Source of the DNA: an uncultured Gammaproteobacteria bacterium
Lineage (GTDB): Bacteria > Pseudomonadota > Gammaproteobacteria > Arenicellales > JAANXG01
DNA: 46,932 bases
Reading direction: 5' to 3'
Assembly (NCBI GenBank): GCA_947258495.1
Contig: CAMYIN010000066.1
Location: 1 to 46,932 of the forward strand
The notes below the pieces were generated by a model, which searched no databases, was not told where the DNA came from, and saw nothing but the letters and a program-made list of their open reading frames with translations. Within the stretch, counting starts at the first letter, position 1. Each line of letters begins with the position of its first letter. The position numbers and the translations under genes are program-made. Shown here piece after piece: positions 34,748 to 42,722 of the stretch.

Positions 34748-34821
34748 TGGGGGATCGTCTAGTGGTAGGACTGCGGACTCTGACTCCGCCAGCGGGGGTT
34801 CGAATCCCTCTCCCCCAGCCA
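34748..34821 (+). tRNA. tRNA-Gln (anticodon CUG)
   Basis: The 74-base gene folds into a cloverleaf: acceptor TGGGGGA pairs with TCCCCCA, the D arm holds GTCTAGTGGTAGGAC, the anticodon stem GCGGA/TCCGC encloses the loop CTCTGAC with anticodon CTG, the T loop is TTCGAAT, and a discriminator G plus encoded CCA ends it. Its 3' part is the attachment site of the adjacent integrated element and is repeated at 42839-42887. The gene remains intact at the integrase-proximal junction. Confidence 0.97.
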
Positions 34822-34858: not shown

Positions 34859-34878
34859 TTGCTAACCGTTTGCTAACC
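34859..34878 (+). repeat. Left integrase arm-type repeat
   Basis: TTGCTAACCGTTTGCTAACC, itself two TTTGCTAACC-like units, occurs here and again at 42703-42722 in the same orientation near the opposite end of the element. Such paired sites inside both junctions are expected for the arm-binding domain of a tyrosine integrase. The left copy overlaps the integrase stop codon. Confidence 0.75.
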
Positions 34879-36033
34879 GCGCTGCGAGACACCGCCCAGG
34901 ATGGCGTCGATTGCGCGGGCTGCTTCCTCCTGCATGTCCGGCATGACGTGAGAGTACAGGTCGAGCGTCACCGCGACCGAGGAATGACCGAGGCGCTCAC
35001 TCACGACCTTCGGATTGATCCTCTGGCGCAATAACTGTGTCGCATGTGTGTGGCGCAGATCGTGGAGCCGTATCCCCTGGAACTCGGTCCGCCGGATCAT
35101 CTTACGGTAACTGTTGGTGAGACTCTCGGGCGGCCAGATGGACCCGTCTTCAAGACAAAAGACCAGATCATTATCTTGATACAGTTTACCCGCTTGTAAC
35201 CGTTCCTCTTTTTGCTTGGTCCGATCTTTCTTTAGCGCCTGCACCGTTATCGACGGCAACGCTATCTTGCGTCGGGAGCGCGTTGTCTTCGGTGTCTTAA
35301 ACCGCAACCCCTTTAATTTTGTTTGCTCGACACTGCGATTGACCGATAACCACCGACCCTCTATATCCACGTCACTCCACTTCAATGCGAGCAGTTCCCC
35401 TCTGCGGAGTCCCGTTGTCACCGCGACGAGCAGAGGCGTATGGAGTCGCCGACCCTCCGCCAGCTTGAGTAACGATTCTGTTTGATCCTCTGTCAGACAT
35501 TTCATTTCTTGGTTCGTTATCTTGGGAGGTTCCACGGCATCGACGGGATTACTTTGTAGAATTTGCCAGCGCACCGCTTGCTTGAGCGCCTTATGAAGTA
35601 CCACGTGATGCTGGCGCACGGTCTTAGCGCTTAACCCCCCTCTACCATCTACCCGACCGCTGCGGAGTGCTTCGTCATAGTACTCTTGAACATGGATCGG
35701 TTTAAGATCGCTCACCTTCATGTCGCCGAACGTGGTGACCAAATGATGATGGCATATCTCCGCATAACGCACATACGTCTTAGTGGCGATGGCATGCTCG
35801 ACATGGGCAAGCCATTTTTCGAGGTAGTCTCTAATCGTGAGTTGCTGGGGTTCGATATACGTCCCGGTGTCTAACTGGCGTAATGCTCCCGTGAGCCGTT
35901 CCTGAGCCATTTTCTTGCTGCCGCGTACCGTCTCCCATTTTTGACGGCGCTTGCCGTTGGCGTCGCGGGGCAATTCGATAATGATGGACCACGTGCCTTT
36001 TGCACGCTGCTTGATATGACCTCTGTTACTCAT
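34873..36033 (-). CDS. int: Phage-type tyrosine integrase
   Basis: This 386-residue site-specific recombinase has an N-terminal arm-binding region beginning MSNRGHIKQRAKGTWSIIIELPRD, a SAM-like core-binding domain at about 60-160 and a catalytic domain at about 175-375. Catalytic residues are visible: Arg at about 210 in TTGLRRGELLALKWSDVD, the HxxR box in LHDLRHTHATQLL, and the final His and Tyr in GHSSVAVTLDLYSHV. The start at 36033 is chosen because GGAGGG lies about 10 bases upstream and its ATGA overlaps the stop of the upstream zinc-finger gene. It lies next to the tRNA-Gln site and points toward it, the usual arrangement for insertion into a tRNA 3' end. Confidence 0.96.
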   Translation of the reverse strand: MSNRGHIKQRAKGTWSIIIELPRDANGKRRQKWETVRGSKKMAQERLTGALRQLDTGTYIEPQQLTIRDYLEKWLAHVEHAIATKTYVRYAEICHHHLVTTFGDMKVSDLKPIHVQEYYDEALRSGRVDGRGGLSAKTVRQHHVVLHKALKQAVRWQILQSNPVDAVEPPKITNQEMKCLTEDQTESLLKLAEGRRLHTPLLVAVTTGLRRGELLALKWSDVDIEGRWLSVNRSVEQTKLKGLRFKTPKTTRSRRKIALPSITVQALKKDRTKQKEERLQAGKLYQDNDLVFCLEDGSIWPPESLTNSYRKMIRRTEFQGIRLHDLRHTHATQLLRQRINPKVVSERLGHSSVAVTLDLYSHVMPDMQEEAARAIDAILGGVSQRG

Positions 36034-36791
36034 GTTAAACCCCTCCGTTGCTGTGAAGCGTAGACACGGCATGTGTTACTGCAGTAGCGTGCCGTCCCGC
36101 GTTGATATTCAAACCACTTGCCGCACCGTTCACAGGCGCGGTGATTCATCTTGCGCCCGACTGTGCGCGAGAACTGATAAAAGATCGCGCCGACCAAATT
36201 ATCCGGAACGAGGCGAGTTTCGAGTTGCCCCTTCGACCACATGAGACGGGGCGAGACGTGTTCGCGTAATACTTTATCGGTTCGTAGCTTCAGGTAGTAC
36301 AGGGCAGGTTCGTAAGTGTCGCTATACGTGAATTGTTTTAATCGCGCTGGTGCGTCTTCGGAAACGTCAATCTTGAGTCGGTCTTCTCCGAACTCGTCTT
36401 CTATACGAATGACAATATGATTCTTGTCCGGCCACCGGACGAACTTGAACTCTCGATGACCGTCTTCAACGCGATCCCGCATATCGACTAGGCGGCGCAG
36501 ACAGCCGACGTAATACGTCCATGCGCTGAGGGGTTCAGCGGGAACGGATTTTCTCTTTATAGTGATGTTCTCCGCGACACCTAAATGCCCCCACTGATTC
36601 GCGAAGCCGACGAACGCATCTGCATCGTTCGGCAGATTCGCGAACTCGCGAAACAACACTCCGTTGTCGAGAGGACGGATTGTGGACCACAGTCCGGGAT
36701 CGCTGACGAGATACGAGCGCCCCCCAGACCGAATCACCCGATACCCGTCATCGGGAACCTGCCAAGCGAAAAATAAAAGTTCTTCGGTCAT
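36030..36791 (-). CDS. C-terminal zinc-finger protein coupled to the integrase
   Basis: The product is about 253 residues from the ATG at 36791. The first 190 residues match no family that I recognise (opening MTEELLFFAWQVPDDGYRVI). The C-terminus carries a compact zinc-binding motif, CERCGKWFEYQRGTARYCSN-TCR, with Cys-x2-Cys and Cys-x3-Cys pairs followed by a basic tail, resembling CGNR-type zinc fingers of DNA-binding regulators. The open frame extends to 36875, but that start would leave no room for a promoter between the divergent genes. Its stop and the integrase start overlap as ATGA. It may regulate the divergent promoter or assist integration; this is inference. Confidence 0.72.
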   Translation of the reverse strand: MTEELLFFAWQVPDDGYRVIRSGGRSYLVSDPGLWSTIRPLDNGVLFREFANLPNDADAFVGFANQWGHLGVAENITIKRKSVPAEPLSAWTYYVGCLRRLVDMRDRVEDGHREFKFVRWPDKNHIVIRIEDEFGEDRLKIDVSEDAPARLKQFTYSDTYEPALYYLKLRTDKVLREHVSPRLMWSKGQLETRLVPDNLVGAIFYQFSRTVGRKMNHRACERCGKWFEYQRGTARYCSNTCRVYASQQRRGLT

Positions 36792-36878
36792 TACGTTAAA
36801 TATACAATATATCTGATTGTAGCGTAAATTTCTTTTTGTTATGTTTTGGTCTGAATCAACAACCGATGAGGCCAAACG
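36792..36878. promoter_or_regulatory. Divergent promoter region between regulator/int and the rightward operon
   Basis: This AT-rich stretch of 87 bases separates the two divergent operons of the element, standing out from the GC-rich surroundings. On the minus strand TTTACG and TATATT are 18 bases apart and point to the zinc-finger gene. The related sequences TTACGTTAAAT and AGCGTAAATT flank this region and could be operator halves. A GATGAGG ribosome binding site serves the HTH gene. Confidence 0.55.
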
Positions 36879-37082
36879 ATGACGACGCAGAAAGAACGTG
36901 CCCAGGACGCGAAAACGCCCCCGCTGGCGCTGAGCGTCGCTGAAGCCGCGATTGCCCTGCGAATGTGCACGAATAGCGTCTATGCAGCGGTTCGATCCGG
37001 CGACCTGCCGTCGGTCCGTATCGGGGGTCGGATTGTTATCCCGGTCGGAGCGCTTCAGCGCAAATTAGAGGAGATGGCGTGA
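36879..37082 (+). CDS. Excisionase-like helix-turn-helix protein
   Basis: This 67-residue protein has the HTH_17/excisionase pattern: LALSVAEAAIALRMCTNSVY for the first two helices, then AAVRSGDLPSVRIGGRIVIPVGALQRKLEEMA with the winged turn. Proteins of this type act as directionality factors or as activators of the excision genes in phages and satellites. It opens the rightward operon and overlaps the next gene as GTGA. An excisionase and an AlpA-like transcription activator cannot be told apart by sequence alone. Confidence 0.83.
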   Translation: MTTQKERAQDAKTPPLALSVAEAAIALRMCTNSVYAAVRSGDLPSVRIGGRIVIPVGALQRKLEEMA

Positions 37083-37273
37083 CCAAAAAGAAAAAACGCC
37101 CGCCGGGGCATGGCGGGCGCGTATTACGATTTCCAGGGGCGCGGAAATACAAGACCGATTATATAGTCCGATCCTGCACCTGTAAAAGTAAAGGTACCTG
37201 CCGTACGTGTAAGGCACACCAAGCGCTGCACCGTGCAACCCTCACCTTCCTTCGCTTTGGCGGTGCCGGATGA
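37079..37273 (+). CDS. Cys-rich basic miniprotein
   Basis: The product is 64 residues from a GTG that overlaps the HTH stop; it overlaps the following ATPase gene by ATGA. The N-terminus is strongly basic (MTKKKKRPPGHGGR) and the middle holds SCTCKSKGTCRTCKAH, with four Cys in Cys-x-Cys and Cys-x2-Cys spacing, plus His residues. This could form one zinc site and bind nucleic acid. No family is recognised. Position between Xis and the replication ATPase suggests a role in replication or regulation. Confidence 0.7.
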   Translation: MTKKKKRPPGHGGRVLRFPGARKYKTDYIVRSCTCKSKGTCRTCKAHQALHRATLTFLRFGGAG

Positions 37274-38712
37274 TTGGTGCGATCGCGGAATTGGCGCAAC
37301 TGTCGCCGATGGAATACGACCGGGCGAGAAAGGCCAAGGCCAAGGAGTTGGGCGTTAGACCGGCAACCTTGGATGCTGAAGTAAAGAAAGCGCGCCAAGA
37401 AAACGATGCGACCACGATTCAATTCGTCGAGCCGGAGCCGTGGCCGCAATCCGTCGATGGTGGCGTGCTACTCGATACCGTCCGCGCTTTCATCTTGCGT
37501 TATGTCGCAATCACCGACGCGGGCGCGGTGGCGGCGTCATTGTGGGTGATTCTTAGTTGGCTGCACCCCACGCTCGCAATTCACATCTCGCCGATTCTGG
37601 CGGTAACGTCACCACAAAAACGATGCGGTAAGACTACTCTGCTGCGGGCGCTGTCTTTATTGGTGCGGTATTCATTGCCGACCAGCAACGTTACCGTCGC
37701 GGCATTGTTCCGGGCTGTTGACAAGTATCAACCCACATTGCTGATTGATGAAGCCGACACCTTTTTACACGAAAACGACGAGTTGCGCGGGATTCTCAAC
37801 AGCGGACACGTTCGGGAAAGCGCCGGCGTCATCCGCACCGTGGGCGACGATCACGAACCCCGCCAGTTTTCAACGTGGAGCGCAAAGGCCATTGCATTAA
37901 TCGGCAACCTTAGCGATACCCTGGAGGACCGATCCATACTGATTGCACTGCAACGGCGGAAGGCGGGCGAGCCCATCGAGCGATTGCGGGCCGTTGACGT
38001 GGCCGACCATGCCGAACAGATCAAAAGCATGTGTGCAAGATGGGCCGACGATCACGCCGCCAGCGTCGGCGGATGGGAGCCGTACTTGCCGAGCGAGCTG
38101 CATGACCGGGCTATAGATAATTGGGAGCCGCTGCTGGCGATTGCTGAGGTCGCCAAAGATAAGGAATGGGTCAAGGCGGCGCGTGAGGCCGCGTTAAAGC
38201 TCAGCGGGGGCGGCGATGATAATGATGACGCCGGCGTGGCGCTGTTGGCGGACATTCGCGAGGTTTTCGCGGGCAACGACGCCATGTTCTCTAAAGACCT
38301 GGCCGCCGACTTGGCGTGCCTGGATGACCGACCTTGGGCGCGCTGGCACAAAGGCAACCCGATCAGCACCAACGCAATCGCCAGATTACTAAAACCGTTC
38401 AAGATTGGACCGACCACGATCCGTGACAACCAAAATGTTGCGAAAGGATACAAGTCTGAGTTTTTCGCCGACGCATGGGAACGCTACCTAAAAAAAGAAA
38501 ATTCCCCTTATGCCCCTGAAACAACCGTTACACCGTTACAACGTAGCAACCATGCGGGTTTCAGCGGAAAAACAAACGTTACAACCGAAACCGGTGTAAC
38601 GGTTGAAAATCGGCGGAAACCCGCACCAGTATTGGATTGTAACGGTGTAACGAATGAATCGGGGGGAAACGGGGGTTTACGTAATTTTTATGAACCGGGG
38701 GCCGACGGATGA
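37270..38712 (+). CDS. DUF3631-like P-loop ATPase, probable replication protein
   Basis: The 480-residue protein has a P-loop ATPase core: Walker A as SPQKRCGKTTLL (Lys121), Walker B as LLIDEAD (157-163), and a downstream DUF3631-like region with LNSGHVRESAGVIRTVGDDHEPRQFSTWSAKAIALIGNLSDTLEDRSILIALQRRK. DUF3631 proteins are found in phages, plasmids and satellites beside or fused to primase domains and are thought to act in replication as helicase-like ATPases. No primase domain is seen here. The last 60 residues (from about 419) are low-complexity, rich in Thr, Val, Asn and Gly; the DNA there carries a symmetric repeat array that may be the origin, which could explain the odd protein tail. 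Both ends overlap neighbouring frames as ATGA. Confidence 0.85.
   Translation: MIGAIAELAQLSPMEYDRARKAKAKELGVRPATLDAEVKKARQENDATTIQFVEPEPWPQSVDGGVLLDTVRAFILRYVAITDAGAVAASLWVILSWLHPTLAIHISPILAVTSPQKRCGKTTLLRALSLLVRYSLPTSNVTVAALFRAVDKYQPTLLIDEADTFLHENDELRGILNSGHVRESAGVIRTVGDDHEPRQFSTWSAKAIALIGNLSDTLEDRSILIALQRRKAGEPIERLRAVDVADHAEQIKSMCARWADDHAASVGGWEPYLPSELHDRAIDNWEPLLAIAEVAKDKEWVKAAREAALKLSGGGDDNDDAGVALLADIREVFAGNDAMFSKDLAADLACLDDRPWARWHKGNPISTNAIARLLKPFKIGPTTIRDNQNVAKGYKSEFFADAWERYLKKENSPYAPETTVTPLQRSNHAGFSGKTNVTTETGVTVENRRKPAPVLDCNGVTNESGGNGGLRNFYEPGADG
38525..38653. repeat. Six-iteron dyad, candidate replication origin
   Basis: Three forward CGTTACA copies (38526, 38534 and 38577) and three reverse TGTAACG copies (38595, 38638 and 38646) are placed as exact mirror images about position 38589. 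The outer pairs are tandem 8-bp units. A 10-bp inverted repeat, TGCGGGTTTC at 38553 and GAAACCCGCA at 38616, shares the same axis. All lie inside the 3' coding end of the ATPase gene, where satellite origins are often placed relative to their replication gene. Confidence 0.75.
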
Positions 38713-38741
38713 AACGCAGACCGAGCCGCACCAATGGTCAG

Positions 38742-38807
38742 GCAAGGGGGGGTTCGGATTCTCACAGGGTGGTTCCGGAGGAGCGCCGCCCCCCCGTGCT
38801 TTTTTTT
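38742..38807 (+). terminator. Intrinsic terminator between replication and packaging genes
   Basis: GCA-A-GGGGGGG pairs with CCCCCCC-G-TGC (one A/G mismatch) around a 36-base loop and is followed by eight T residues at 38800-38807. It lies just after the ATPase stop codon and before the likely start of the small terminase. Confidence 0.7.
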
Positions 38808-38840
38808 CGGGCAATGTTAAAAATCCAGAAGCGACGAGCG

Positions 38841-39212
38841 ATGCAAAAAATACCTAGCAATATCAAGAAGTTCAAAGGCACTTACCGCCCGGACAAGGAA
38901 AAACGGAAGCGGCGAACCGCGTTCCAAACCGCTGCACCCCCGCTCAAAAGGCCCCCAGACCTGCCTGCGGAGCAACGAAGGGCATGGGACGAGCTTGTGC
39001 GCTGCGCGAAGGCGGCTAACCTAGCGCTCGAAAGCTGGGATTTGCCCGCGATGCGCCAGGCGGTGTCCATTTACGCGGTTTTGCTGCACAACCCCGCCGC
39101 CGTCAATGCGTCGCTGCATGGGCAGCTACGGCTGCTGCTGCAAGGGCTGGGCATCAGCGTGACCGAGCCGGTGGAAGATCCTATCGACCTGGAGCGAGCG
39201 CTGGACGAATGA
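38841..39212 (+). CDS. P27-like phage terminase small subunit
   Basis: Small terminases recognise phage DNA and start packaging. From the ATG at 38841 the product has 123 residues: IPSNIKKFKGTYRPDKEKRK, then PPDLPAEQRRAWDELVRCAKAANLALESWDLPAMRQAVSIYAVL, ending LLLQGLGISVTEPVEDP, the layout of P27-family terminase small subunits. The frame is open from 38709 with an ATGA overlap, but the upstream part lies across a terminator and does not resemble the family, so the later start is preferred; 38814 is another option. No large subunit is encoded nearby, so it may redirect a helper phage's motor. The stop overlaps the next start (ATGA). Confidence 0.72.
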   Translation: MQKIPSNIKKFKGTYRPDKEKRKRRTAFQTAAPPLKRPPDLPAEQRRAWDELVRCAKAANLALESWDLPAMRQAVSIYAVLLHNPAAVNASLHGQLRLLLQGLGISVTEPVEDPIDLERALDE

Positions 39213-39586
39213 CGCGGCGGGCGACGCGGCTGATACCCGAACAGCATGTGCTGGAGTCGTTTCTGTTTGGGAAAATCACGGGTGAGCAGCTATGTAAGTC
39301 TCTCGACAGCCCGTTTGCCGACTTTGTTGTGTTGGACCCCAACACGCGCTGGGGCAGGGGCATGCGGAAACTGTGGGATCGGCACGGGGCGCGGCTGCTC
39401 AAAGAGGCGGGGTACAAGGGCATGACGCGGCACTCCCAGCTTCGCAACGTTCTGTATCGACCGGAGCTTACGGGCAAGTATAAAAATCTGGATTGGTTGA
39501 TTGGCGATCTCGGCCCGCCCAAAGGTTTTACGGAAGCACCGATTGGCTTGCCATCGAAGAAACTACTGTATATATTTACAGTATGA
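39209..39586 (+). CDS. Hypothetical protein of the packaging operon (125 aa)
   Basis: The start overlaps the small terminase stop as ATGA, and the stop overlaps the next start in the same way, which supports real translation. The 125-residue product is basic and has no signal peptide or membrane segment; visible stretches are LDPNTRWGRGMRKLWDRHGARLLKEAGYKGM and KNLDWLIGDLGPPKGFTEAP. No family is recognised. Position between the small terminase and the capsid gene suggests a role in DNA packaging or head assembly; it is too short to be a large terminase or a portal. Confidence 0.7.
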   Translation: MTRRATRLIPEQHVLESFLFGKITGEQLCKSLDSPFADFVVLDPNTRWGRGMRKLWDRHGARLLKEAGYKGMTRHSQLRNVLYRPELTGKYKNLDWLIGDLGPPKGFTEAPIGLPSKKLLYIFTV

Positions 39587-39837
39587 AGCCCAAACGCGAA
39601 TACATCGAGCTTGATTTTGATTTGAACCGTCTGGAGCGCGACGAGCTGCTCTTTACGGTGCAGCAAATCGTCGATTTGTATTCGCTTTGCCTGCAGGGCC
39701 GACACCACATTGCGGCCGAGTTTACGCACGCGCTTTTGGGTCTCTGCCTTGCACGCGGACTGCGCGAGCAGGATTCACGCGCCGTCCGTTGGTTCCAGCG
39801 AATGATGGAGCCGCGTGACGGCCACACTATCAATTGA
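39583..39837 (+). CDS. Hypothetical protein of the packaging operon (84 aa)
   Basis: The 84-residue product begins MKPKREYIELDFDLNRLERDELLFTVQQIVDLYSLCLQG. It appears mostly helical, with an acidic N-terminal half. Its ATG overlaps the upstream stop as ATGA and it ends 13 bases before the capsid start. No family is recognised. A small helical protein in this place could be a scaffold or a size-determining factor; that is only inference from position. Confidence 0.65.
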   Translation: MKPKREYIELDFDLNRLERDELLFTVQQIVDLYSLCLQGRHHIAAEFTHALLGLCLARGLREQDSRAVRWFQRMMEPRDGHTIN

Positions 39838-39850
39838 AAGAGGTAACATC

Positions 39851-41020
39851 ATGTTTACGAAAGGCAGTAACAGCCCCCCCCAAATCGATATCCCCCAACC
39901 CGTTGCGCGTTCGCGCCGTAAGAGTCCACCCCCGCCAAACCCCCCGAAAACCATCGCCGAAGTACAAGCCCGATTACGCGCCCTGGAAAGCGCCGCCGGT
40001 TTGGAGCCGGTGTATCGTGAACCGAAACGGCCGGCGCCGCGGGGGTTTCGCAGTTATGAGGACGCTTTCGACGCCGGCATGTTTCTGCTGGCGATCGGTA
40101 AGGACAAGAAAGCGCTGCGCCATTGTCGGGACCGCAATCTGATGGTTGCCAGCGTTGGCACGGCGGGCGGTTTTTTGATGCCCGCAGGCTTGGCGACTGC
40201 GGTCCAGCGACACATTCAGGAGCAGTCCGTCATCATGCAGGAAGCGACCGTATTCACGATGAGCGATAACCTGCTCACGGTGCCGTTGCGGAGTTCAGGG
40301 CTGACGATTTACCCCGTCGATGAGAATCAAGAAATTACCGCATCGGACATCGAGTACGACGCGGCAGAGTTGAATCTGCGAAAGGCAGCGGCTTTGTACA
40401 AGTCGAGCGTCGAGTTGGCAACCGATGCCGTGGTTGATCTGGTAGCCGAGTTCACGACCGAGGTCAGCGGCGCGTTTGCCCAGCATTTTGACCTGGTCGG
40501 ATTCGTCGGGGACGGCGGACAGGACCACAACTCCATTGTGGGTGTCGGAACCCGGTTTGCAAACGACTCCACGCTGGCGGGTACTATCACCGCTGCGGGC
40601 AGTGCTTATACCGATGTGACCGTTGCCAACATCGACTCGATGATTGCGGCGCTACCGGCGCACCTACACGGGAACGCGAAGTTCTACGCCAGCCCGCAGG
40701 GTTGCGCGAATATCTTTTGCAGACTGAGCGACACCGCAAGCCTGCACCCGGTCGGGCCGATGGCGTGGTGCGGTTATCCGATTGAGTTTACCGCTGCGCT
40801 GGGCGCGGGCGGATCGGGAACGCCGCTACTTCTGCTCGGCGACCTGCGGCGCGCCGTCGTATTCGGCATCAAGAACGACATCCGGATCATGGCGTCCGAG
40901 CAGCGGTTCATGGAGCTGCACTCCGTTGCGTACCGTGCTGTGTCTAGATTCGATTGCATAGCGCACGGTGTCGGAGATTCCACCGACGCCGGCGCTGTGG
41001 TTAGCCTAGTCGGCGCGTAA
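39851..41020 (+). CDS. HK97-fold major capsid protein
   Basis: The 389-residue protein shows HK97-type capsid features: an N-terminal Pro-rich and helical arm of about 100 residues (RRKSPPPPNPPKTIAEVQARLRALE), then the mature start VGTAGGFLMPAGLATAVQRHIQEQSVI, the E-loop/P-domain part LRSSGLTIYPVDENQEITASDIEYDAAELNLRKAAALYKSSVELATDAVVDLVAEF, and the C-terminal GDLRRAVVFGIKNDIRIMASEQRFMELHSVAYRAVSRFD. The start at 39851 has AAAGAGGT before it. The N-terminal arm resembles a cleavable delta domain, yet no protease is encoded in the element. A terminator follows. The protein could build a small satellite head or alter a helper's head. Confidence 0.88.
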   Translation: MFTKGSNSPPQIDIPQPVARSRRKSPPPPNPPKTIAEVQARLRALESAAGLEPVYREPKRPAPRGFRSYEDAFDAGMFLLAIGKDKKALRHCRDRNLMVASVGTAGGFLMPAGLATAVQRHIQEQSVIMQEATVFTMSDNLLTVPLRSSGLTIYPVDENQEITASDIEYDAAELNLRKAAALYKSSVELATDAVVDLVAEFTTEVSGAFAQHFDLVGFVGDGGQDHNSIVGVGTRFANDSTLAGTITAAGSAYTDVTVANIDSMIAALPAHLHGNAKFYASPQGCANIFCRLSDTASLHPVGPMAWCGYPIEFTAALGAGGSGTPLLLLGDLRRAVVFGIKNDIRIMASEQRFMELHSVAYRAVSRFDCIAHGVGDSTDAGAVVSLVGA

Positions 41021-41049
41021 ACCCCGTCGCGCTGGCTAGACTCTCGGCG

Positions 41050-41084
41050 AAGGGGGCGGCGTGGTGTCGCTCCCTTTCTTTTTC
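41050..41084 (+). terminator. Intrinsic terminator after the capsid gene
   Basis: AAGGGGGCG pairs with CGCTCCCTT (one G-T pair) around a nine-base loop, followed by TCTTTTTC. It ends the rightward operon 30 bases after the capsid stop. Confidence 0.82.
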
Positions 41085-41293
41085 GAGTAACTACGTCTTC
41101 GCCCAAGTGCCGCAAACGGCCAGGAGCGGTTGTTTAAGAACGCCAAGAAACGTCGATTCTAAAGTCCGTTGCTGTAAGCAGTGCGGACATACAAGATAAA
41201 TTTCTGAGCAAGCGCGGGAAAGCATTGTTAGATTCTTCCTGGCTCGACTTGTTCGTACGTGACCGTTGCGTTGGGTTGACCGTGGACTTCGAG

Positions 41294-41324
41294 TCAAACA
41301 AAACCCCGCCACTGAGGGCGGGGT
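41294..41324 (-). terminator. Intrinsic terminator after the PEP-CTERM gene
   Basis: On the minus strand ACCCCGCC pairs with GGCGGGGT around a six-base loop, followed by TTTTGTTTG. It lies 31 bases beyond the PEP-CTERM stop. The 209 bases between this terminator and the one at 41050-41084 hold no supported gene. Confidence 0.82.
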
Positions 41325-41355
41325 CATGTTGGATAGGTGTGTGAGAAATCAATCG

Positions 41356-41985
41356 TTAAGCATTCAGTCTGCGCCGTCTTGCAAAGCCTAAACCGGCTAG
41401 GCCAAGGCCCATGAGTAAGAGGGTCGTGGGTTCGGGCACTGAGGCCCCCACAGTATTGATAACAACCCGCTCAATTACGGAGCCGTTTTGAGCGCCTTGG
41501 TTGTGATCCCAAGAGAAAGAAGTGAATGCTGGACCAGAAAAATTGATGATGCCCTGTCCATTATCCGCACCGCCGGTCGAGGTCGTGATCGTGGTACCGT
41601 CAAAAAGGGTCCCGAATTGGTTGGTGTACGAAATGACTACTGGACCATTCGACGTAGAAAAATTGGTAAACGTCTCCGGAGCGCCCGACCCGACATCACT
41701 TGCCGCGTCAAACTCCCATTCTATCGAATCAATGGCTTCAGAGAACGTCAAGGTATAAGAGCCAACGGCGCTACCGGGGCCGAACCAGATTCCCGCGAAA
41801 GTCCCGACGGCAATGTTGGTCAAAACACCGCCTGTTGTCGTGGCCGTCAAAGTTACGCCGCCGGACGAAACGGAAAGTCCTGAACCCAGCAAGGTGTCGT
41901 TGTACGTAATGAGAACGGCGTTTGCTTGCGCAGCCATAGCAAAAATCACCATCCCACTAATGGTTCTAATGAAACTTCGAATCAT
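41356..41985 (-). CDS. PEP-CTERM sorting domain protein (element cargo)
   Basis: This 209-residue exported protein has a signal peptide (MIRSFIRTISGMVIFAMAAQANA) and ends with a clear PEP-CTERM signal: VPEP at about 183-186, a hydrophobic helix TTLLLMGLGLAGLGFA and the basic cluster RRRRLNA. Such proteins are processed by an exosortase (EpsH/XrtA) and reach the surface or matrix of exopolysaccharide-producing bacteria. The middle is Gly/Ser/Thr-rich with many short beta-like stretches (TLTATTTGGVLTNIAVGTFAGIWFGPGSAVGSYTLTFSEAIDSIEWEFD). A G-rich ribosome binding site and a sigma-54-type promoter lie upstream. No exosortase gene is in the window. Its presence inside a phage-like element is unusual. 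Confidence 0.9.
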   Translation of the reverse strand: MIRSFIRTISGMVIFAMAAQANAVLITYNDTLLGSGLSVSSGGVTLTATTTGGVLTNIAVGTFAGIWFGPGSAVGSYTLTFSEAIDSIEWEFDAASDVGSGAPETFTNFSTSNGPVVISYTNQFGTLFDGTTITTSTGGADNGQGIINFSGPAFTSFSWDHNQGAQNGSVIERVVINTVGASVPEPTTLLLMGLGLAGLGFARRRRLNA

Positions 41986-42036
41986 TTTCGTTCCCCCCTC
42001 TTCGGCTATTCGCTAGGATTGCTAGCCATAACGATC

Positions 42037-42052
42037 AGCAATAATCGTGCCG
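42037..42052 (-). promoter_or_regulatory. Sigma-54-type promoter of the PEP-CTERM gene
   Basis: Read on the minus strand, CGGCACGATTATTGCT matches the RpoN consensus (GG at -24 and GC at -12, ten bases between). It lies about 52 bases upstream of the PEP-CTERM start, giving a leader of about 40 bases. Known PEP-CTERM regulons use RpoN with the PrsK/PrsR two-component system. Confidence 0.72.
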
Positions 42053-42110
42053 ATAAGATAACAATCATTTATAAATCAACTACATAGTCATTCTTCTGAC
42101 AGTCAAAAGA

Positions 42111-42479
42111 TTAAGTCGAAAGGAAAACTGTAAAAGATCCTGACATCTTCAGCCTAGATTCCGTCTTTTGGGCCAAAAAAAAGTGTAAAAAATCAAGACA
42201 CCTGTCACAGCTGCGTGATTTGGTGTATTCCCCCCACCGCCACGGCGTGAAACTGCCCGTCCTTATACACACCGCTGGCCCTAACGGATGGGCCGGTGGT
42301 CCGGTAGGGAACGATAAAGCGGTCATTCCGGAGTCATTGGCACGAAAGGCCGGGTTGGGTCGATAGCAGAGATAACACCCCCGCGTTAGTCGCTGCGCTT
42401 CGGCGAATTTTAGTTTGGCATATCGAGAGCAGATAATCGTCCCCTTGGCATCACCCAAACGGGTGAGAATCGCGTCCAT
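42111..42479 (-). CDS. Hypothetical Cys-containing protein at the right end of the element
   Basis: The 122-residue open frame begins directly after the stop of the gene upstream (TGA then ATG), suggesting an operon of two small genes on the minus strand. It shows RLTRGCYLCYRPNPAFRAND near residue 35 and SRSCDRCLDFLHFFL near 90, each with a Cys-x2-Cys pair, which together could bind one zinc ion. No family is recognised. The C-terminus is rich in Phe and Ser. Support is weaker than for the plus-strand genes, because no independent ribosome binding site is clear. Confidence 0.45.
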   Translation of the reverse strand: MDAILTRLGDAKGTIICSRYAKLKFAEAQRLTRGCYLCYRPNPAFRANDSGMTALSFPTGPPAHPLGPAVCIRTGSFTPWRWGEYTKSRSCDRCLDFLHFFLAQKTESRLKMSGSFTVFLST

Positions 42480-42680
42480 TCACGGTCGCAGCGCACTCAA
42501 TAGTTCCGCCCCGTCTCGCCCACCGATCATGGTCCAGGACGCGATCCGCCCGGACTCCACCTTAATAATGATGAATGAGTGGGTGTGCCGGCAATGAAGG
42601 GTGTGTTCCCCGTCGGGGGCGTGTCGTGCGGCGCTGGCTACTTTCTGCTCGCAGGCGAAGCACAGGCGCAAGGGGGTCAT
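42480..42680 (-). CDS. Small hypothetical protein with Cys/His motif
   Basis: The 66-residue product from the ATG at 42680 (a TTG lies two codons earlier) reads MTPLRLCFACEQKVASAARH, followed by a HTLHCRHTHSFIIIKVE segment. Cys-x2-Cys and Cys-x-His spacing suggests a small zinc-binding fold with a beta-rich C-terminal half (GRIASWTMIGGRDGAELL). It is the gene closest to the right arm site of the element. No family is recognised. It may be cargo such as a regulator or an anti-phage factor, but nothing proves it. Confidence 0.5.
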   Translation of the reverse strand: MTPLRLCFACEQKVASAARHAPDGEHTLHCRHTHSFIIIKVESGRIASWTMIGGRDGAELLSALRP

Positions 42681-42702
42681 GGGCAAAGTCTAGCAATCAA
42701 TC

Positions 42703-42722
42703 TTGCTAACCGTTTGCTAACC
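42703..42722 (+). repeat. Right integrase arm-type repeat
   Basis: This is an exact copy of the 20-base repeat at 34859-34878, same orientation. Downstream at 42748 and 42758 the octamer AATGGTAA occurs twice with a 10-base period, which could be binding sites for the excisionase. Confidence 0.72.

Follow-up and report, generated by a model that had tools for sequence, protein, structure and literature searches.

The stretch of DNA analyzed here (the window) is 46,932 nucleotides long and comes from an uncultured gammaproteobacterium (assembly GCA_947258495.1, contig CAMYIN010000066.1). It contains an integrative element of about 7.84 kb, which lies between perfect 20-bp direct repeats and next to a tRNA-Gln gene. 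One gene of this element encodes an ATPase of the DUF3631 (RepAM) family (PF12307, 137.9 bits against a curated Pfam cut-off of 24, E = 5.4e-40). The 3′ part of this gene holds a 129-bp array of short repeats (iterons), which had been proposed, from the letters alone, as a candidate replication origin.

A mirror-ordered iteron array in the ATPase gene

The array consists of six exact copies of CGTTACA, three on each strand, together with a 10-bp inverted repeat (Table 1). In each mirrored pair of iterons, the start of one copy and the end of the other add up to 77178, so that the symmetry axis lies exactly at 38589, and the inverted repeat shares this axis. Both outer pairs are tandem, with a step of 8 bp on either side of the axis. 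The original prediction had named the six-copy symmetry, the inverted repeat and the tandem pairs, and all of them were recovered as described. Within the element (34859-42722), exact CGTTACA occurs only in these six copies, and the whole window holds 12 copies against 3.53 expected.

It had also been claimed that such order exceeds chance and coding needs, and the statistics agree on both counts. The complementarity around 38589 amounts to 48 of 72 positions, which is the unique maximum among the 15,366 axes that were tested within the element (mean 18.2, SD 3.8). Furthermore, the coding tail (38497-38709) has a mirror score of 33. None of 2000 synonymous recodings of this tail with the gene's own codons reached this score (mean 9.1, maximum 29).

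Homologues of the ATPase were sought in several overlapping draws of genomes. They turned up in 12 genomes out of 369 for the class, 17 out of 398 for the phylum, and 14 out of 390 for one order; two other classes gave 2 out of 78 and 14 out of 385, and another order gave 1 out of 2. From 207 relatives, 80 loci on genomic contigs were kept, and 12 viral contigs were added; a single-protein scan of viral contigs gave no match. Together with the window and 12 loci of the first search, these 92 made 105 oriented loci (given L numbers) for scoring. L012 (same place as L015), L013 (partial match), and L016 (overlapping L017) were left out, and L039 was not long enough to be given a mirror score, which leaves 104 loci for that score. 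The set includes duplicate contigs (L003 = L021 and L004 = L088), and the tails of L069 and L099 are identical. Meanwhile, L016 and L017 (genome G085, contig C9) are two DUF3631 copies about 1.5 kb apart, which match piecewise as if frameshifted or fragmentary.

A mirror score of at least 16 was found in 74 of the 104 loci against 9 of 1205 control windows, and a score of at least 25 in 38 loci against none of the controls. The quad score alone separated the loci weakly (median 26 against 23 in controls; 47 of 105 loci above the control maximum), and thus the mirror score carries the claim about layout. L139 fails the quad score, yet CCGTCC-type repeats are visible in its sequence.

In many relatives, a mirror array comes after the last conserved residues, though the encoded tails differ. 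The iteron words include CGTTACA, CGCTACA, CGTCACA, CGTAACA, CGCAACA, CGAAACA, CGTCAGA, and AAGTGCC. Taking the best 7-mer as the word gave wrong words in some loci, including the window, and other word calls were used instead. Of the 88 scored loci, 76 have a tandem step of 8 bp. The layout of the window (8-43-18-43-8) recurs exactly in 16 of 87 elements and closely in 6 more, and a second layout (two tandem sites and one inverted site 31 bp on, mirrored) was found in 18 of the 87, both counts being given without a shuffled control. For example, Pseudomonas phage Phipami28 has the exact spacing of the window with the word CGCGACA, in five exact copies and one with a mismatch. With regard to the left arm of the inverted repeat, of 104 stretches taken from the 230 bp that follow the conserved domain, 48 contain AAACCC or GGGTTT, against 5 of 104 control stretches within the gene. 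As to the order of sites in the 88 loci, 23 have four identical sites, and 21 have differing tandem sites that recur in mirror order, whereas none has them in translated order; the 21 include several close relatives, and the scoring favors neither order. The other 44 loci fit no class exactly. It had been anticipated that the DNA symmetry would be kept while the encoded tail varies, and this is what many relatives show, with words that differ between elements.

The signal at the DNA level is independent of coding. Among the 88 loci, L025 (weak by mirror score), L033, and L104 have all their scored sites beyond the stop codon, and 12 more have some of them there. In two Streptomyces plasmids (accessions NZ_CP108973 and NZ_CP108827), which carry the loci L150 and L151, the array begins in the last codons, crosses the intergenic gap, and is mostly intergenic. 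Moreover, site A is found in all three reading frames (47, 28, and 13 loci). In 20 of the 22 six-site elements (L036 and L099 were left out), the iteron positions are 94% complementary, partly by selection, whereas the spacers are 45% complementary against about 25% expected. Because the iterons are complementary and the spacers much less so, it is the sites that are conserved and not a long stem.

The ATPase and its covariation with the iteron word

The structure model of the ATPase was built from 50 aligned sequences (49 of 51 valid loci and the window) and has a mean predicted local distance difference test (pLDDT) score of 85. From the N-terminus, the model shows three helices, the ATPase core, a helical region, and then a winged-helix-like domain at the C-terminal end. 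The array-encoded tail that follows (residues 410-480) is modelled as disordered (residues 410-423, 427-451, and 454-480 below a pLDDT of 50). The ATPase is modelled with a fold of the replicative-helicase type and a P-loop, and G120, K121, D160, and E161 are invariant in the 50 sequences. The Foldseek list is headed by MCM helicases, PriRep1 of Staphylococcus aureus pathogenicity islands (SaPIs), and Rep40 of adeno-associated virus (best E = 5.4e-7). With the C-terminal model by itself, no fold match was significant (best E = 0.094). In addition, CGTGACA, an iteron with one mismatch, lies at 38422-38428 within the codons of the proposed iteron-reading wing, possibly by chance.

The word can be written C-G-X3-X4-A-C-A. 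The covariation set comprised 76 loci with clean words, or 68 after copies more than 95% identical had been dropped, and word positions 1, 3, 4, and 7 were run, positions 2 and 5 hardly varying. We found that X4 covaries with residue 390 (z = 13.4), and the next of 359 columns is the neighboring residue 391 (z = 5.1). X4 = T goes with Val390 in 20 of 25 loci, and X4 = A or C goes with Thr390 in 41 of 50; the window conforms, with T and Val390. Loci were also matched with their closest relatives in disjoint pairs, for which only the ATPase part was compared and near-copies were removed. Residue 390 differs in 22 of 22 pairs split by X4 = T or not, against 8 of 32 other pairs (Fisher P = 1.3e-8). 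The excess in this test is 0.75 for residue 390 and 0.43 for the next best column. Meanwhile, residue 383 covaries weakly with X3 (z = 6.0), second behind another column (6.7). In the modelled wing, residue 383 is on one strand of the hairpin and residue 390 on the other.

Outside the training set, 31 loci were examined. L112 (= L097), L114 (C-terminus missing), L120 (no word), and 16 loci with other residues at 390 were dropped, and 12 were countable. Ten of these fit the 390 rule (L110, L115, L119, L121, L136, L138, L143, L148, L150, and L151), one is mixed, and one contradicts. L150 and L151 belong to another phylum; the arrays of L121, L143, and L148 are weak or partial, and for L143 and L148 the word comes from a reading of the printed sequence. 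The rule for residue 383 and X3 fit in 11 of 15 loci outside the training set, with two mixed (L117 and L148) and two contradicting (L115 and L136). The ATPase had been put forward as one of three candidate readers of the array, alongside the Cys-rich small protein and the HTH protein, and the covariation test fits this role for the ATPase. Four loci of one genus (L118, L133, L134, and L135) have Arg at 390 and no mirror array after the gene by quad score; their site may be elsewhere.

The integrative element and its genes

The coordinates of the array, the ATPase, and the other features of the element are given in Table 1.

Table 1. Features of the iteron array, the DUF3631 ATPase, and the surrounding element (positions in the window)
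Feature	Position	Strand	Remarks
Iteron 1 (outer)	38526..38532	+	
Iteron 2 (outer tandem)	38534..38540	+	8-bp step
Left arm TGCGGGTTTC of 10-bp inverted repeat	38553..38562	+	
Iteron 3 (inner)	38577..38583	+	43 bp from iteron 2
Symmetry axis	38589..38589	strandless	
Iteron 4 (inner)	38595..38601	-	mirror of 3
Right arm GAAACCCGCA of 10-bp inverted repeat	38616..38625	-	
Iteron 5	38638..38644	-	mirror of 2
Iteron 6	38646..38652	-	mirror of 1
DUF3631 (RepAM) initiator ATPase gene	37270..38712	+	PF12307
C-terminal winged helix, proposed iteron-reading domain	38281..38487	+	codons 338-406; our reading of helix-strand order; covariation
Codon 383 (Thr), first strand of wing hairpin	38416..38418	+	weak covariation with X3
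Codon 390 (Val), second strand of wing hairpin	38437..38439	+	covariation with X4
Left 20-bp direct repeat, likely attL	34859..34878	+	37 bp past tRNA-Gln (CTG) gene 34748-34821
Tyrosine integrase	34873..36072	-	PF00589 E 1.6e-22; phrog_1 E 2e-79
Small helix-turn-helix (HTH) protein (HTH_17)	36879..37082	+	PF12728 E 2.7e-9; weak excisionase/regulator match, phrog_66 E 1.9e-5
Four-Cys small protein	37079..37273	+	no family match in Pfam/PHROGs scans
Gene after ATPase	38709..39212	+	weak terminase-small-subunit match, phrog_83 E 0.014
HK97-type major capsid protein	39851..41020	+	PF05065 E 1.2e-23; phrog_10 E 8.5e-29
Right 20-bp direct repeat, likely attR	42703..42722	+	

With its capsid gene, this 7.8-kb element may be a capsid-bearing satellite or a reduced prophage. 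Capsid-forming phage-inducible chromosomal islands carry an integrase, an AlpA-like regulator, a replication module, and a capsid module between att repeats. The element itself has the integrase, HTH_17, DUF3631, the capsid, and the 20-bp repeats. No portal, protease, or large terminase was matched among the ten proteins scanned with Pfam and the nine scanned with PHROGs. In addition, a gene for a PEP-CTERM protein (41356-41985, minus strand) lies inside the likely att repeats and might be cargo or older host DNA. A reverse gene with a Cys-rich end (36030-36875, minus strand) lies between the integrase and HTH genes and has a weak HNH endonuclease match (phrog_1271, E = 4.1e-6).

A second copy of the ATPase was not found in the source genome, which is 74% complete; the second match of the genome search, on the minus strand, is in our reading the palindrome matching itself. 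The neighbors of the relatives were surveyed in 17 of the 92 loci, with 139 of 153 open reading frames scanned. Among these 139, there were 12 tyrosine integrases and 2 TubC_N proteins, and no capsid family was among the 25 listed of 66 neighbor families.

Interpretation of the array and comparison with known systems

Most simply, the array would be a dyad of sites to which the ATPase itself binds. Since the mirror layout is kept in many relatives with changing words and a wing residue tracks the word, we infer that the array is most likely the site where replication of the element starts. In our judgment, the 129-bp array is very probably the replication origin of the integrative element, a symmetric dyad of iterons recognized by the product of the gene that contains it, the DUF3631 ATPase. 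The winged helix at the C-terminus of this protein would bind the 7-bp iterons directly, and its wing would contact both variable bases, residue 390 meeting base 4 and residue 383 perhaps base 3. Two ATPase assemblies that face in opposite directions, most likely hexamers, would be placed over 38589 by the mirror order of the iterons, three to a side. The duplex would be opened at this point, and the assemblies would leave both ways as replicative helicases, with bidirectional replication using polymerase and primer from the host or a helper. B-DNA has 10.5 bp per turn; the steps of 8 and 43 bp correspond to about 0.76 and 4.1 turns, and thus iterons 2 and 3 would lie on one face of the helix.

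Several observations weigh against this interpretation. The mirror score is below 14 in 19 of the 104 loci, neither exact layout is found in 47 of the 87 elements, L008 has no tail, and seven later-fetched loci (L118, L120, L133, L134, L135, L140, and L142) have no array by quad score. The 390 rule has exceptions (L097, which equals L112, in the training set; outside it, L137 contradicts and L113 is mixed) and is silent for residues other than Thr and Val. The rule for residue 383 and base X3 is weak and no more than suggestive. The listed fold matches have low TM-scores (0.23-0.36 by query length), and the Foldseek list also includes other AAA+ proteins (RuvB and BchI). SaPI origins have an AT-rich unwinding zone between their iteron sets; here, the central 40 bp that start at 38570 have an AT content of 60%, which is at the 95th percentile for the element and would hardly amount to a marked zone of this kind. 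GC skew shows no switch at 38589, a result that is uninformative, and the cumulative GC-skew minimum near 36.75 kb coincides with the switch of gene direction.

Other explanations of the array can be considered. Many tails encode VTxSQ ... VTD or similar, and the repeats might then be a by-product of coding for a V-T-rich protein tail. However, 8-bp steps shift neighboring copies into different frames, site A uses all three, and arrays run past stop codons. Furthermore, no synonymous recoding of the window tail attains its score, and the tail is modelled as disordered. We give this explanation practically no credence. Inverted-repeat copying by template switching, with or without function, could also keep the symmetry, and it would suit both the variant sites in mirror order and the spacer complementarity above expectation. 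Neutral copying, however, would symmetrize the spacers along with the iterons, and it would neither couple the word to residue 390 nor keep the 8- and 43-bp steps across distant lineages. As the cause of the symmetry it is very unlikely, and such copying may occur on top of selection.

DUF3631 might instead be a rolling-circle initiator and the array a double-strand origin with a hairpin nick site, since RepAM proteins were predicted to be initiators of this type with pC194-like nick sites (PMC3218068). Indeed, a strong hairpin is predicted for 38504-38674 (-53.6 kcal/mol, z = -9.2, with none of 200 shuffles as stable). However, the ATPase model is of the helicase type, and no His-hydrophobic-His (HUH) pair was found, H180 being the only His in the invariant and nearly invariant columns of the 50 sequences. 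CTTGATA, the pC194-like nick motif, is absent from the array of the window and lies nearest at 38861, and the contrast in complementarity between iterons and spacers speaks against the hairpin as well. The chance that the array is such an origin seems slight. The coding repeat, the rolling-circle origin, and a simple hairpin were all rejected on this evidence. The ATPase could also bind the array for a purpose other than starting replication: to control copy number or incompatibility, for partition, or to regulate the gene at 38709. The array is just ahead of that gene, and the covariation identifies the reader of the array and not the event that takes place there. However, this reader is modelled like a replicative helicase, and its family has been named an initiator (PMC3218068). 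Moreover, six sites on one axis downstream of the conserved domain of the initiator fit an origin better than an operator. A role of this kind is improbable in our view.

The replication origin proposed here may be one case of a broad and undescribed class of origins in bacterial mobile elements, a generalization to which we give an even chance. In this class, an initiator-specific iteron dyad, which would mostly begin within the 3′ part of the coding sequence for a DUF3631 helicase, would load two opposed rings, like T antigen of simian virus 40 or MCM, and wing and word would coevolve by a simple residue-to-base code. If this is true, such coevolution would let related elements diverge into separate replicons, and the rolling-circle label on RepAM would be overturned. 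The analysis proposes a function and a mechanism for a domain of unknown function that occurs in integrative elements from several phyla, it offers a testable code by which an initiator may recognize its own origin, and it would allow likely origins of DUF3631 elements to be located directly from sequence. It also argues against the sole published mechanism that we found for the family. Nothing like this dyad origin was found in the one open-access library searched, which does not cover the original pMEA300 papers.

The alpha protein of phage P4 has a C-terminal winged-helix origin-binding domain and 8-bp repeats (type I iterons); it differs from DUF3631 by carrying a primase. The P4 origin-binding domain (1ka8) matched our C-terminal model at chance level (E = 0.82). 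In the IncU plasmid RA3, mapping placed oriV at the 3′ end of repB, which codes for the initiator, a location like that found here; the abstract of that report does not mention mirror symmetry (PMC9455977). The phage-inducible chromosomal island-like element (PLE) of Vibrio cholerae is a satellite whose own RepA_N initiator acts on iterons. It differs in the family of the initiator and in its non-coding origin, and no helicase activity is predicted for its initiator (PMC7145576). RepAM, the DUF3631 protein of the actinobacterial integrative and conjugative element pMEA300, is a named initiator for which rolling-circle replication was predicted (PMC3218068). It belongs to the same Pfam family, and two Streptomyces plasmids have the same kind of array after the gene. 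However, a dyad iteron origin with a helicase-type initiator is indicated here.

The SaPI Rep and Cch2 of the staphylococcal cassette chromosome mec are also initiator helicases encoded by mobile genetic elements, of the self-loading type. Their C-terminal domain reads short iterons at the 3′ side of the gene, directly downstream of it in the case of SaPI Rep, and two hexamers have been proposed (PMC7581432). DUF3631 differs from them in its Pfam family and in its hosts, which include Pseudomonadota, Desulfobacterota-type, and Actinomycetota bacteria. Its arrays are mirror-ordered, often with 8- and 43-bp steps, and usually begin inside the coding sequence. Nevertheless, SaPI-type traits are shared: PriRep1 is among the best fold matches of the DUF3631 model, the iterons are located at the 3′ end of the helicase gene or closely behind it, and the covariation of residue 390 with base 4 suggests that here, too, a C-terminal domain reads them.
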